The notes under the pieces are model-generated. The model was not told where the DNA came from, ran no database searches, and saw only the letters and a list, made by a program, of their open reading frames with translations. Of a stretch of 64,000 nt of DNA, positions 26,522 through 63,612 are shown piece after piece. The stretch comes from Pantoea sp. CCBC3-3-1 (GTDB lineage Bacteria > Pseudomonadota > Gammaproteobacteria > Enterobacterales > Enterobacteriaceae): positions 1,240,001-1,304,000 of the forward strand of contig NZ_CP034363.1 of assembly GCF_007981265.1 (NCBI RefSeq), read 5' to 3'. The translations under genes were made by a program, and so were the position numbers. Numbering within the stretch: position 1 is the stretch's first letter; every line of letters starts with the position of its first letter.

Positions 26522-26698
26522 GTGAAGCAAAGCGAGTTTCAACGTTGGCTTGCAGCGCAAGGGGCAGAATTTAAGAACGGCACAAACCACCTTAAAATCT
26601 ACCTGAACGACAAGCAGACGATAATGCCGAGGCATCCGGGGAAGGAAATACCGGAGCCGCTGAGAAAAGCGATTCTCAAGCAACTCGGTCTTAAATAA
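26522..26698 (+). CDS. hicA: HicA mRNA interferase toxin
   Basis: A 58-residue dsRBD-fold toxin starting at GTG with AGGAGG-like SD. 'FQRWLAAQGAEFKNGTNHLK' carries the catalytic His in 'GTNHLK', and 'QTIMPRHPGKEIPEPLRKAI' is the usual second half. It cleaves mRNA and is neutralised by HicB encoded next. HicA before HicB is the classic order. Confidence 0.92.
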   Translation: MKQSEFQRWLAAQGAEFKNGTNHLKIYLNDKQTIMPRHPGKEIPEPLRKAILKQLGLK

Positions 26699-26744: not shown

Positions 26745-27152
26745 ATGAGATACCCAGTAACATTAGATTGTGACGATACGGGATGCGCAGTGCTGTTTCC
26801 TGACATCCCGGAAGCGGTGACGGGCGGCGATACCAGAGAAGAGGCGTTAGCAATGGCGCAAGACGCTCTGGTAACTGCATTTGATTTCTATTTTGAAGAT
26901 CGTCGTGAAGTGCCGCCGCCATCGTCAGAGGGTGAGGCTTTTGTAGAAGTGCCGGCAAGCGTAGCTGCCAAGGTGCTTTTGCTCAATGCCGTGGTTCAGG
27001 CTGGCGTAACCAACGCCGAGCTGGCCCGCATGATAGATACGCGCCCGCAAGAGATTACACGGGTGTTTGATCTGCATCACTCGACCAAAATCGACACTAT
27101 CCAGAAGGCGCTATCGGCGCTGGGCAAGCGGCTGGAACTGGCCGCTGTCTAA
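26745..27152 (+). CDS. hicB: HicB antitoxin
   Basis: A 135-residue antitoxin with a partial RNase H-like N-terminal domain ('YPVTLDCDDTGCAVLFPDIP', 'GGDTREEALAMAQDALV') and a C-terminal HTH ('GVTNAELARMIDTRPQEITR') that binds the palindromes upstream of hicA. A terminator follows. Confidence 0.93.
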   Translation: MRYPVTLDCDDTGCAVLFPDIPEAVTGGDTREEALAMAQDALVTAFDFYFEDRREVPPPSSEGEAFVEVPASVAAKVLLLNAVVQAGVTNAELARMIDTRPQEITRVFDLHHSTKIDTIQKALSALGKRLELAAV

Positions 27153-28743: not shown

Positions 28744-28980
28744 ATGAGCGAAGCAAAACCGCAGGACGGCAGCACCGTTAAGGGCTACCGCACATTAACG
28801 GCAGGTGACATTGAGGTAATGAACCGGCTGAAAGATGTAAGCCGCCACTTTCTGAACCTGCTGGAGACGTCCAAAGAAACTGGCGCAAATCCGCGCTGGA
28901 TTGCCATGGCTAAAACGGAGATGCAGAAAGCTTGCATGTTCGCCTGCCGTGCAGTGGCTCAGCCGGATGATGATTGCTAA
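28744..28980 (+). CDS. acb2: Acb2-like anti-CBASS cyclic-nucleotide sponge
   Basis: A 78-residue helical protein matching the Acb2/Tad1 hairpin family: 'VKGYRTLTAGDIEVMNRLKD' near the start and 'RWIAMAKTEMQKACMFACRA' then VAQP near the end. Acb2 proteins (e.g. T4 Vs.4) bind cyclic di- and trinucleotides and so disarm CBASS defence. It sits three bases after Rz1 in the late operon and is flanked downstream by a stray Rz1 C-terminus. Family call is by motif recall. Confidence 0.75.
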   Translation: MSEAKPQDGSTVKGYRTLTAGDIEVMNRLKDVSRHFLNLLETSKETGANPRWIAMAKTEMQKACMFACRAVAQPDDDC

Positions 28981-29124
28981 GTGACCAGCCAGATTGTATT
29001 ATCAGCGCCGTCATCAGATATGACGTTCGGTGACAGCGTGGCGCTGAATGCTGAGCTGCATGGCATTATTGCGCAGTGCAATATTGATCGAGCTGCTGTT
29101 AGAAAAATTGACGCAGAGGATTAG
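28981..29124 (+). CDS. Duplicated Rz1 C-terminal fragment, 47 aa
   Basis: A GTG-started frame directly after the acb2 stop. Its residues 'DMTFGDSVALNAELHGII' and 'QCNIDRAAVRKI' align with 'NMTFGQAVELSAELYGVI' and 'QANIDRAAIRQI' of Rz1. It has no signal or lipobox. Most likely a remnant left when acb2 entered the end of an Rz1 gene; whether it is translated is unknown. Confidence 0.6.
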   Translation: MTSQIVLSAPSSDMTFGDSVALNAELHGIIAQCNIDRAAVRKIDAED

Positions 29125-29254
29125 CGAGTTTAATTAATATTAAGCATTATTAATCGGCCTCTGCATAGTCTTAATTTGCAATAGGATATTGCCTAAAAGC
29201 CAACATAGATATAATCTCCACCCCCAATCTTACATTAATATTTTTGGGGTTTGC

Positions 29255-30142
29255 ATGAGTGGGGATGCAGGACTGCATGAAGTCGAGCGTTTCAGTATTT
29301 TTTATGATGCTGACGACAATGAGCTCTCTGAGCATAAAATGGATGCTATTTTTCTCGGTCAGGCAATCCAGCAAGTAGGCTTGATGGTTAAGCAGGCGGG
29401 GCGACTGTTAAACCCAAACGAAGCAGACCTTGATGTCAAAGTCACTGTGCCAGCCCAAGAAGGGTCATTTGCTGTAGAGTTTGCATTATATGCATATAAC
29501 AATTTTCGTGAGGTTCTACCGGCGCTTGGTCTTCTTGGTGGTGGTGCTTTAGCTGTAACTCAGCAACTTCGCAATCGCAAAGTCATCAATGTTCAGACTT
29601 GGGACAATAGCGATGATGCGGTCATAACAGTAGAGTATCGTGGTAGGCAGGAAGATATAGCTTGTCGTAAAGATGAAGCATTGCTTGCTACTGATCCAGT
29701 GATTAGAGAGGCATACAATGAAATCATTACTCAACCATTGATCAACAAAGACGCCCCTGTTTTTCGCGTCGAGATTGAGGGTGAAGAGGTCTTACGATTA
29801 GACGGAGTTGATGATGTTGAGTTTGCACCATTGCCTAAAAAATCTCTTACGTTCGACCACACTGAGCGTCTTGATACTACAGTCGCATTAACCCAAGTGA
29901 ATTTTACATCTTCTACAGGGTGGCGTATCAAATACTTGGACGAAGATCGCGCGGTTAAGATGGAAGACACTGCATTTATGGAGCGCGTGCTTAATAATCA
30001 GGCAGCTTTTGTAAAGGGTGATCTATACAGAGTTATGCTTAGAATTAAAACTGTAGAAAAGCCCGACAATACTGTAAAAACCACTTATGCTATTGAGCAA
30101 GTGCTTCATCATTTTGCTGATGAAGAACGTCGCTTAGTTTAA
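29255..30142 (+). CDS. Unrecognised protein of accessory cassette, 295 aa
   Basis: First of three consecutive AT-rich genes between lysis and terminase. Start 29255 has GGGG five bases upstream. An N-terminal part ('FSIFYDADDNELSEHKMDA') is followed by a helical stretch, a conserved-looking 'VPAQEGSFAVEFALYAY', a hydrophobic segment ('VLPALGLLGGGALAV') and a beta-rich C-terminal half. It resembles widespread uncharacterised proteins with an 'EGSF-x-V-x-F' core, but I cannot name a function. The following two genes encode membrane proteins, suggesting a joint membrane-linked role. Confidence 0.7.
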   Translation: MSGDAGLHEVERFSIFYDADDNELSEHKMDAIFLGQAIQQVGLMVKQAGRLLNPNEADLDVKVTVPAQEGSFAVEFALYAYNNFREVLPALGLLGGGALAVTQQLRNRKVINVQTWDNSDDAVITVEYRGRQEDIACRKDEALLATDPVIREAYNEIITQPLINKDAPVFRVEIEGEEVLRLDGVDDVEFAPLPKKSLTFDHTERLDTTVALTQVNFTSSTGWRIKYLDEDRAVKMEDTAFMERVLNNQAAFVKGDLYRVMLRIKTVEKPDNTVKTTYAIEQVLHHFADEERRLV

Positions 30143-30149
30143 GGAAACC

Positions 30150-30401
30150 ATGTTTACCAATCTTCCTCATATGATCCAATTCATTCAGGGACTCAGCTGG
30201 ATACCCTTAACGGCATTTTGTGCCGTGTTTGGATATGCAGCTGTACGCTGGATTGGTAACACTTTTTTTCCTGAGCGTTACGTTACGTTAAATCGGTATC
30301 ATAACGATAGATTGATTTCATCTGTTCAAATCGACGTTAAAAGTGCCGAACCCCTTGTTGAACAGCTCAGAAAGATAAGGGAGGCTGAACGTGGCTGGTA
30401 A
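30150..30401 (+). CDS. Small membrane protein of accessory cassette, 83 aa
   Basis: One transmembrane segment ('LTAFCAVFGYAAVRWIGNTF') and a soluble C-terminal part ('SVQIDVKSAEPLVEQLRKIR'). It starts eight bases after the 295-aa gene and overlaps the next gene by 11 bp, so the three form one operon. Unrecognised. Confidence 0.65.
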   Translation: MFTNLPHMIQFIQGLSWIPLTAFCAVFGYAAVRWIGNTFFPERYVTLNRYHNDRLISSVQIDVKSAEPLVEQLRKIREAERGW

Positions 30402-30771
30402 GTCTCTTCCAGAAGCTGGAGTAGGTATTGGTACAGGGGTAACAACAACACTTCTGGCATTTTTGACAAGCTGTAGTGAGTTTTTACCTGAGCAATACAG
30501 GCACGGTTACACTCAAGTTATTCCCTACATATGCCCCTTCATTAGTTGGCTATCAGTTTGGTGTTACAACCGATTCGTAGAGCCTCCAGAGATGGCTAGT
30601 ATCAAAGGTAAGTTTAAGCGTGATTTAAAAATGCTTAAAAAATGTATTAAAAATAAAACAATGTCTGAAGCAGCAAGAGACAAAGCACAGCGTGACTATG
30701 ATGAGACCAGCTTGAAATTTGCTAGTTTAGGCAGGGATTTCGCCGCAGGGCTTTATAGCAAGCCGACCTAA
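30391..30771 (+). CDS. Membrane protein with cytosolic helix, 126 aa
   Basis: Two hydrophobic segments ('GVTTTLLAFLTSC' and 'VIPYICPFISWLSVWCY') followed by a Lys-rich helical tail ('KGKFKRDLKMLKKCIKNKTM'). Size and layout recall small effector or exclusion proteins, but no family is recognised. Third gene of the cassette, followed by a terminator. Confidence 0.65.
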   Translation: MAGKSLPEAGVGIGTGVTTTLLAFLTSCSEFLPEQYRHGYTQVIPYICPFISWLSVWCYNRFVEPPEMASIKGKFKRDLKMLKKCIKNKTMSEAARDKAQRDYDETSLKFASLGRDFAAGLYSKPT

Positions 30772-30814
30772 TAGCTTTACTCTGGCTACAACCGTTTCAT
30801 AAACTACAAAAAAT

Positions 30815-30837
30815 GCCGCCTCCGGGCGGTTTTTTTA
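30815..30837 (+). terminator. Intrinsic terminator after accessory cassette
   Basis: CCGCC-TCCG-GGCGG stem with seven T, about 45 bases after the 126-aa gene. Confidence 0.85.
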
Positions 30838-30898
30838 TTGGGGTGAATACGACGCTTATGAAGGTGGAGCTCGGGGATACTTGCGCCTGATTATGTAA

Positions 30899-31345
30899 TC
30901 AAACTGGGTGATGTACCAGAGCCGATTGAATAAGGTCCCAGCGGTCCAGGTACTGCTCATCCTCACCTTTAGCTATTTTGAAAAGCGGCGCACTATGGTG
31001 CCAAGTGGAATTGTTTGCAACGGTTAAGCTTGGGGCGATAAAAATCTCAGGAACATTATTGTTGTTAATGTCTTCAGACATGTTACAGAACACATAAAAG
31101 AAATCAGGTGATACGGCTGGAATATGCTTGCCTACCATCCATTGGCGTGGGGCACTTCTGGCCCACGATCCTTTAACCTGAATGCTGATGCTTTTTGAAC
31201 CATCAATGGTAGCAATGATATCGACAGCGCTTGAACCGCTTGTAGTTAAAGCGGCACTGATACCCAGTCGGGATAGCATATAAGCAACGTAATACTCTCC
31301 GGCATTACCTGCGTTTTTGGTAGACCTTTTAATCATTTCAGACAT
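30899..31345 (-). CDS. PD-(D/E)XK-like nuclease-fold protein, 148 aa
   Basis: Antisense to the late operon, divergent from terS by 20 bp. 'NAGNAGEYYVAYMLSRLGI' (Glu), 'SAVDIIAT' (Asp) and 'SISIQVKGSW' (Gln-x-Lys) match the order of a PD-(D/E)XK active site. The C-terminal part has a run of Asn ('DINNNNVPE'). Start 31345 has AGGG upstream. Could be a small nuclease of defence, exclusion or DNA-packaging type; role unknown. Confidence 0.65.
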   Translation of the reverse strand: MSEMIKRSTKNAGNAGEYYVAYMLSRLGISAALTTSGSSAVDIIATIDGSKSISIQVKGSWARSAPRQWMVGKHIPAVSPDFFYVFCNMSEDINNNNVPEIFIAPSLTVANNSTWHHSAPLFKIAKGEDEQYLDRWDLIQSALVHHPV

Positions 31346-31365
31346 AGCATCCCTTGGAAAAGTAA

Positions 31366-31938
31366 ATGGCACTCACCGACAAACAAGAAATGTTCTGTCG
31401 CGAGTACCTCATCGATTTGAACGCCACGCAAGCGGCCATTCGGGCGGGGTACAGCGAAAAGACCGCACCGACTATCGCATGCGAAAACCTCATAAAACCT
31501 AATGTGCAAGAGCGAATTGCGCAACTAAAAGCTGAACGCAATGAGCAATTAAACATTGACGCCGCTTATGTGCTTCGCCGGTTGGTTGAGATTGACCAGA
31601 TGGACGTGCTCGACATCGTGAAGGATGACCTCTCTCTAAAGCCTGTAACTGAATGGCCCGCGACATGGCGTAGATACATCTCCGGATTCGATGTTGCGGA
31701 GATGTTTGAAAATACAGGTGAGGATGGAGCGCGTGAACTGGCTGGCATCCTGAAGAAGATTAAGTGGCCGGATAAGGTCAAGAACCTTGAGCTGCTTGGT
31801 AAGCATGTGACCGTCCAGGCGTTCAAAGAGAATGTGAAGACTGAGCAATCGGGAACGGTGCAGGTAGTCAATTACACGCCTGGCGACTATGCAGCAGCAC
31901 AACAGCAGCTGGAGGCTAAATTAGACGGATTGGACTGA
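31366..31938 (+). CDS. terS: Terminase small subunit
   Basis: A 190-residue Terminase_2-family protein: '[20 protein letters not shown]' and '[10 protein letters not shown]' form the N-terminal HTH, followed by '[14 protein letters not shown]'. It recognises the packaging site and partners with TerL encoded two bases downstream. Confidence 0.93.
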
Positions 31939-62606: not shown

Positions 62607-62740
62607 AAATTTACCTGCCAGCCTGATAACGTGAGAATCTGTAGCTCATAGGCGGCCCGGAAAAGCAGCTTCTTACTGGCTGGAAGAATGTGACGGGTAC
62701 GATAAACCGGTATCAGCACATCCATTAACAACCTGTTGAA

Positions 62741-63182
62741 ATGTAAAAAATACCGTCAGGCTAGAATGATTCTTATCAAGACGAAGAGAGGGGAAGGGCT
62801 CCTGGCCTATCTGGATTCGGTTGGCGTCTGGACTATTGGCGTAGGTCATACCGGTACTGTGGACGGCAAGCCGATAGCAAAAGGAATGACAATTACGCCA
62901 GCGCAGTCCAACATTCTGCTGTTAAGCGATCTGGCCTGGGTAGAATCAGCCATTAATGGCAATGTGAAAGTCCCGCTGAAGCAAAACCAGTACGACGCGC
63001 TGTGCAGCTTCGTTTTCAATGTGGGGCTGACAGCCTTTGTTAACTCCACGCTGCTTAAAAAGCTCAACAGGAAGGACTACAAAGGCGCCGCTGACCAGCT
63101 CTTACAGTGGAAGCGGGCCGGTAGCATTGCGGATTTGCTTTTGCAGCGCCGTAAGCGAGAAAGGGAGCTGTTCATCACATGA
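62741..63182 (+). pseudogene. Decayed endolysin copy
   Basis: Homologous to the lysozyme at 27718-28155. The ancestral ATG (62741) is followed at once by TAA and a later TAG; the frame reopens at 62766. There 'IKTKRGEGLLAYLD' replaces 'IKREEGERLLAYLD', so the catalytic Glu is Arg, apparently through two compensating indels. The Asp and Thr remain. Inactive as a lysozyme. Confidence 0.8.
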
Positions 63183-63612
63183 AAATTATCGGCTTTATCC
63201 GTAATTACTCGCACCTCATTGTGATCGGCCTGATTTGCGTTTGCCTGTGGGGGCTTAATGCTTGCAACGCCCAGCTGACGGCCACCAACGAACGGCTGGA
63301 AAAGCTCGCAAACAGCAAAGACGACCAGATTAACGATCTGCGCCCTAAAAACGATGGCCGGCATCTTCAGTAAATGACCTAGTTACAGCAGTGAATAAGC
63401 AAAACGCCGTCATGTCTCAGGTAGTCGAGCAACGGGCAGAAACAGCACAGCAAAACAGGAAGCTCCAGAGTGAAATTAAACGTTACCTTGCGGCGGACAA
63501 GTGTGCTGTTGCTCCTGTTCCCGCTGGCGCTGCTGACCGGTTGCGGGGCGCAGCAAAAAACGCTGGTAGAGTATCGGACAATCAGCCAGCCAAGTCTGCC
63601 GATACCCGCTGA
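63179..63612 (+). pseudogene. Rz: Rz copy with frameshift
   Basis: The first part (63179-63373) matches Rz to 'INDLRPKNDG', then a one-base deletion near 63357 (GATGGCC for GATGGGCT) breaks the frame; homology resumes in the other frame ('NAVMSQVVEQRAETAQQN') to 63612. A long stretch is almost identical to the intact Rz of the first prophage. Confidence 0.82.

Follow-up and report, generated by a model that had tools for sequence, protein, structure and literature searches.

A mobile three-gene operon of prophages and plasmids, built around a LAPAL-family protein, as a candidate exclusion module

The layout of a soluble protein working with a membrane partner and carried by a prophage is found in the RexA-RexB pair of phage lambda and in the RexAB-type pair of Pseudomonas putida, as described in extracts from PMC11077077 and PMC12894663. 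The P. putida pair is reported there to cause membrane damage and growth arrest (PMC12894663). Tab, from the Pseudomonas phage JBD26, is an opposite-strand moron with its own promoter and gives constitutive protection; it is a single 83-residue protein located between the terminase genes, it blocks tail assembly, and membrane partners are not mentioned in the extracts of PMC10884400 on which this description is based. Here we compare with these systems a prophage-borne unit of three genes, A, B and C, located at positions 29255 to 30771 on the + strand of a 64,000 nt stretch of Pantoea sp. CCBC3-3-1 (assembly GCF_007981265.1, contig NZ_CP034363.1, positions 1,240,001-1,304,000 of the forward strand). 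This stretch is called the window, all coordinates refer to it, and related loci are designated by L numbers. The cassette is a real, mobile operon, and it probably shields the host cell from other viruses by means of a sensor and a pair of small membrane proteins.

Gene A (29255-30142, ATG start, 295 aa) is followed after a gap of 7 nt by gene B (30150-30401, ATG, 83 aa), the end of which is overlapped for 11 nt by the GTG-initiated gene C (30391-30771, 126 aa), all three on the + strand. A TTG codon at position 29189 would lengthen A to 317 aa; the relatives begin at or near 29255. The G+C content of A, B and C is 43.2%, 42.5% and 42.0%, respectively, as compared to 50.8% for the window. Pairwise dN/dS values between the window, L003 and L005 were 0.04-0.06 for A, 0.07-0.13 for B and 0.08-0.12 for C, and such low values are codon evidence that the three are real genes. 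Upstream lie holin, lysozyme and Rz/Rz1-type open reading frames (ORFs) and an Acb2-like gene, and downstream an oppositely oriented 157-aa gene followed by the terminase small subunit. The original prediction, made from the letters of the window, had described three coupled genes of low G+C content between lysis and terminase genes, and the ORFs and their neighbours are as it described them.

A search with an alignment of A provided 29 related loci, one from genome_contigs and 28 from IMG/VR. C was found in all of them and B in 10 by single-sequence search (E < 0.01), and both were found in 29/29 by hidden Markov models (HMMs), iterated on the same loci that they then scored. The presence of near-copies (e.g., L003/L004, L005/L006, L018/L019/L020 and L021/L022) means that these are not 29 independent cases. 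B and C overlap by at least one base in 33/33 rows in which both were scored, from a total of 37 rows which include a few same or near-same loci; taking the first start codon makes some of these overlaps longer. The three genes co-occur in the 29 fetched relatives, which answers the reservation, attached to the original prediction, that they might never co-occur elsewhere. In a FastTree phylogeny of 57 non-identical A sequences, rooted at the midpoint, the three-gene copies group apart from the single-gene copies, with the exception of the Shewanella plasmid copy L059, which falls outside the three-gene group. Among these sequences 32 are accompanied by B and C, two by B only, two by C only, and 21 are alone (one at a contig end); position-matched ORFs were seen for the missing partner in the B-only and C-only cases.

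On plasmids, A gave tblastn matches in 35 of 72,556 records, 30 of them from Pseudomonas. The A-B-C order was observed in L056 (Pseudomonas) and in L059 (typed conjugative), in which B was assigned by annotation and position and a type I restriction-modification gene lies approximately 5 kb from the cassette. The LAPAL model, described below, was found in 12/392 genomes of the same family (nine above the cut-off) and in 14/369 genomes of the class (seven above), and alignment searches retrieved 7/197 genomes in the order and 11/299 in the phylum, each of these counts including the window's own genome. This sparse and scattered distribution is as expected of a mobile accessory gene. Among 5,426 E. 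coli genomes, 42 have DNA resembling the cassette of L016, at 60-80% identity and with less than 80% of the query covered in every case, and one has DNA resembling that of L008; DNA resembling the cassette of the window was found in none of the E. coli genomes searched. No paper on the three-gene form was found in the literature searched, outside of which lie most subscription papers and preprints.

Protein A belongs to an already catalogued family; new here are the operon form, the limits of the clade, the borders, the genomic slots and the OB fold. It matched the NCBIfam model NF053583 (LAPAL_fam) with 174.6 bits over residues 13-286 (curated cut-off 60) and the PADLOC profile PDC-S42 (PDLC05015) with an E-value of 2.7e-27 over residues 11-287, as well as phrog_3243, of unknown function. 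Both LAPAL_fam and PDC-S42 cover A alone, whereas B and C of the cassette are outside these models and are missing from the sister clade. NF053583 is named "LAPAL motif-containing putative phage structural protein", and this name is carried into the RefSeq annotation of E. coli E10, although most genome positions argue otherwise. In the alignment the relatives read "DLAPALLSL" where A reads "FLGQAIQQV", and we infer that the family owes its name to this motif. No paper naming PDC-S42 was found in the literature search and, judging by title, none on LAPAL as a phage protein.

The structural model of A predicts an alpha+beta domain (residues ~8-175) with a weak hydrophobic insert, followed by an OB-like domain (~199-292) whose five predicted strands have the OB topology and match solved OB domains. 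This two-domain layout was common to the one member modelled from each clade, three-gene and single-gene. The original prediction had given A a hydrophobic segment; it exists but is weak, with a best 19-residue Kyte-Doolittle mean of 1.35, and was modelled as short helices. In a set of 29 diverse A sequences, conservation reaches 70% or more in 27 columns, of which Y17, D30, S71, K109, R151, D238, D256, Y278 and H286 are polar or charged. In our judgement no catalytic motif was recognisable among these columns, and A was not retained as an enzyme. An uncharacterised protein of 184 aa from Mycobacterium phage Pipsqueaks (BFVD A0A142K7V1) aligned to A by Foldseek (E 2e-7, 99 columns, root mean square deviation 3.8), and is a possible remote relative of one domain.

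None of the three proteins had been recognised in the original prediction. This is superseded for A; C matched phrog_35868 only (E 6.3e-11, function unknown) and B had no match above cut-off in the libraries searched (phrog, NCBIfam, PADLOC and Pfam). Neither B nor C matched any NCBIfam or PADLOC model, none of the three passed a curated cut-off in Pfam, and a search of solved structures by sequence with A, B and C gave nothing meaningful (best E 0.039). From hydropathy, B has one hydrophobic segment, near the N-terminus, and C has two followed by a charged tail. The tail of B is basic in 23/26 copies, and by its charge would be cytoplasmic; the tail of C probably forms a coiled-coil. C was first described as two-pass; its two hydrophobic segments are weak in the window (1.34) and stand out more in many relatives, with values up to 2.19. 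The C homologue of E. coli UPEC85 (L200:6120-6515) is annotated as a "globin family protein", which looks like a misannotation.

The unit has sharp borders. On the left side a perfect inverted repeat, GCAATA-GGA-TATTGC (GCAATAGGATATTGC, 29178-29192), is operator-like and overlaps the -35 region of a promoter-like site at 29189-29215 on the + strand (TTGCCT, 15 nt, TATAAT, with the -10 at 29210-29215); the repeat is identical, and the promoter-like site kept, in L003 and L005. A consensus scan (5 sites as compared to 5.2 in shuffles) missed this putative promoter because its spacer measures 15 nt and the scan requires 16-18 nt. On the right side, the closing terminator that had been noticed at the outset is present at 30815-30830 on the + strand (a stem with a T-run; an opposite-strand site is listed at 30829-30816) and is kept in two relatives, although the count of terminator-like sites in the region, 5 as compared to 3.0 in shuffles (sd 1.7), is not clearly above chance. 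The DNA is 86% identical to L005 from 29178, which is the palindrome, to 30834, and 90% identical to L003 from 29020 to 30838, the right edge of similarity being the terminator in both cases. Elsewhere in the 20 kb of the window that were compared, there was one 106-nt match in the lysozyme gene (L005) and one 48-nt Rz1 match (L003). The cassette thereby has the attributes of a moron: a predicted promoter and terminator of its own, and a similarity that stops at or near the borders of the unit between otherwise unrelated flanks. In a group of inverted loci (L014-L017, L021-L023, L025 and L027-L030) a short core resembling a palindrome, with GTTARTGATTT or a close variant after it, lies approximately 80-140 nt upstream of A in 12/12 examined, the pattern having been drafted after viewing most of them. 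This element may be an operator of the cassette, or it may belong to the late region of the phage.

We used phmmer to look for marker genes near the cassette in the window and in 36 related loci, and six kinds of slots were observed. In the window, L003-L006 and L008-L012 the cassette is on the same strand as the lysis genes which precede it, and a terminase gene follows in the window, L003, L005, L008, L011 and L012; the cassette of UPEC85 is also located between lysis and terminase. A second arrangement, in 14 of the 36 loci, places it on the opposite strand with the antiterminator gene Q beyond C (the 12 inverted loci listed above, L065 and L066). Twelve of these 14 are also flanked, on the side away from Q, by a lysis or terminase marker, and Q was confirmed by Pfam in L016 and L022; in E. 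coli E10 the cassette is inverted between tRNAs/holin and Q. In L007 and the Proteus record L057, a same-strand lysozyme gene comes after the cassette. In L002 (Pseudomonas sp. LD120), L018-L020, L024 and L026 a same-strand gene for a repressor-like helix-turn-helix (HTH) protein is upstream (assigned by Pfam in L002, L018, L024 and L026), and these loci appear to be P2-like since tail gene D follows (PF05954 for L018). In L013 the cassette comes after a repressor gene (S24 + HTH_3) and an endonuclease I gene. The fifth kind comprises L067, within a same-strand tail operon (Baseplate_J, Dit_like, GpV apex), and L064, with regulator genes nearby, and the plasmid loci L056 and L059, without a match in the phmmer marker search, make up the sixth. 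KAP NTPases (PDC-S20, PifA-like) are encoded on the opposite strand within the Q-lysis slot of L005 and L012, and after the cassette in L026. They are P-loop NTPases unrelated to A, the likeness being the shared slot only, and their company adds guilt by association.

The single-gene sister clade, LAPAL proper, points mostly in the same direction as the three-gene clade. Neither B nor C was found in its 78 loci (E <= 0.01). The single-gene loci were thinned by hand to 54, of which 53 had an upstream gene; the 40 upstream neighbours on the same strand were analysed and the 13 on the other strand left out. HTH_3 was present in 12 of the 40 and S24 in nine, lysis-type domains appearing as single matches; in L061, for example, A comes after a repressor gene (S24 + HTH_3). 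In Lactobacillus phage A2 the single A gene is flanked by the endolysin and integrase genes; the integrase is again a neighbour in Listeria phage 188, with a "putative superinfection immunity protein" on the other side, and in Bifidobacterium phage PMBT6. Genes on the integrase side are used in the lysogen. The same is told of repressor-side genes, in the case of rex, in extracts from PMC11077077.

The sequences show the operon and its conservation, the way it recurs as a unit, the slots and orientations it takes, and a predicted OB fold in A. We propose, with confidence evenly balanced, that the cassette is an exclusion or abortive-infection module. It would be a moron, that is, a self-contained transcription unit, expressed in the lysogen and used by the prophage against other phages. 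A would be the soluble sensor or adaptor, tethered in a complex at the inner membrane by the one hydrophobic segment of B and by the two segments and cytoplasmic tail of C. Upon infection A would recognise, through its OB domain, a ligand of phage origin, the likeliest being phage DNA in replication or an intermediate of DNA and protein, and would then switch B and C, disturbing the membrane and halting the infection as RexA (soluble, DNA-binding) and RexB (membrane) do. More tentatively, and well short of even confidence, the cassette would be an exclusion system not described before, with three components and carried by prophages and plasmids, RexAB-like but of independent origin, with an OB-fold sensor of phage nucleic acid (or of a DNA-protein complex) and a two-protein membrane effector, the single-gene LAPAL proteins being a simpler form of the sensor. 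The membrane-acting defence or exclusion function of the original prediction is thus supported by circumstantial evidence. Several observations weigh against such a role: A is acidic, the window cassette is on the same strand as the late genes, L067 is inside a tail operon, in the sister clade two of the 40 genes upstream of A belong by Pfam match to the virion morphogenesis family PF05069, and in four of the 74 single-gene loci with room for it a small hydrophobic same-strand ORF, none matching B or C, is adjacent to A.

Some of these observations, and the NF053583 name, would suit a role of A in phage structure or morphogenesis, the membrane proteins being accessory. The position among late genes in the window, the tail operon of L067 and the two PF05069 neighbours go in this direction. 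A morphogenesis gene should be aligned with its fellows, as the cassette is in the window and L067, yet it is opposite to Q in 14/36 loci, it exists on plasmids, part of the sister clade has repressor or integrase neighbours, and tblastn with A found 0/50,697 phage records (a single-gene relative gave matches in seven of the 50,697). This reading has very little probability, and the possibility that the proteins would turn out to be known virion proteins, which the original prediction had named as fatal to it, is realised in the NCBI name of A only, most of the genomic evidence pointing away. An equally slender chance goes to a counter-defence module acting in entry or lytic growth, possibly with Acb2: the Acb2-like gene adjoins the cassette in the window, but in the related loci it appears once and in a different place, the junctions look separate, and the cassette often runs against the direction of lytic transcription.

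Two further explanations were considered. A might modulate the repressor switch, as RexA does in lambda, protection being a by-product of the control of lysogeny or prophage stability. The position downstream of repressors in L002, L013, L018-L020, L024, L026 and part of the single-gene clade agrees with this, but many three-gene copies are at lysis genes, away from the repressor, and the related operons on plasmids have no lysis-lysogeny switch to tune; we consider it improbable, if a little less so than the two preceding proposals. In superinfection exclusion at DNA entry, B and C in the inner membrane would stop phage DNA from passing into the cell, as SieA or Imm do, and A would serve as a regulator or an anchor; the cell would not die. 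This explanation is rather unlikely but deserves more credit. Two small membrane proteins in a prophage are what it calls for, and the endonuclease I genes near the cassette in L013 and L084 would suit an action at entry. However, A is the most conserved part of the unit by dN/dS and persists alone in the sister clade, and its OB domain is not obviously needed for such blocks.

The preferred reading, an exclusion module with a sensor and a membrane effector, resembles RexAB also in that some relatives of the cassette follow a repressor gene, as rexAB does. The differences are that RexAB has one membrane protein with four helices, whereas hydropathy gives the cassette two with one and two hydrophobic segments, and that RexA is likened to RdgC (extracts from PMC11077077), whereas a predicted OB fold is found in A. 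Homology with RexAB was rejected: hhalign gave a probability of 0.1% for A against RexA, with a thin RexA profile of four sequences, and 0.2% for C against RexB. The structure-search matches listed for A are OB and alpha+beta folds; RexA is not among the matches listed, which is itself no proof of absence. In the absence of profile similarity, and with a different number of membrane proteins, the cassette is not a member of RexAB. A single-gene defence candidate labelled structural by NCBI becomes a defined three-gene operon with clear borders, and assays of A alone from the three-gene clade are predicted to miss the activity. The sensor family is widespread and exists in two distinct forms, one having membrane partners and the other lacking them, so that the contribution of the membrane part can be put to the test. 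Should the OB domain sense phage DNA and B and C act on the membrane, the link between DNA events and the membrane in Rex-type exclusion, a long-open question, would have a second and independent solution in the cassette.

The Acb2-like gene (28744-28980, + strand, 78 aa; Acb2_Tad1_hairpin PF24729, E 5.7e-16) is outside the cassette. It is followed by a second copy of the Rz1 3' end (28981-29121, + strand), and in L003 the matching stretch is continuous with more of Rz1 (from TQQKPLVEY, lacking the 5' part) and leads into the cassette without acb2. The Rz1 sequence around them suggests that acb2 and the cassette came to lie side by side through separate events. The flanks of the related loci, searched for up to 8 kb and often less, contain acb2 in 1/29, in a different slot approximately 6 kb away. 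The partnership with Acb2, the other half of the original prediction, was consequently rejected.

Endonuclease I genes (PF04231) were noted near two distantly related three-gene cassettes, at L013:6590-7513 and L084:3027-3755. In L064 a gene for an autoinducer-binding-domain protein (L064:5831-6541, PF03472 E 8e-17) adjoins the cassette on the other strand. The 157-aa gene between the cassette and the terminase (30899-31372, - strand) matches phrog_29029 (E 1.2e-75, function unknown); a segment of 465 bases at this gene is 77% identical to E. coli YZ22PE67, where an opposite-strand gene also precedes the terminase. It contains an AVDI...QVKG pattern that we take to be reminiscent of PDDEXK nucleases. 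Upstream of the lysis genes are a HicA toxin gene (26522-26695, PF07927 E 1.4e-9) and a HicB-like antitoxin gene with an HTH domain (26745-27152, PF15919 E 2e-8), and a HicB homologue is located near the cassette in L023. Lysozyme- and Rz-like ORFs appear for a second time approximately 34 kb downstream, at about 62736-63400, so that the window probably reaches into another prophage.
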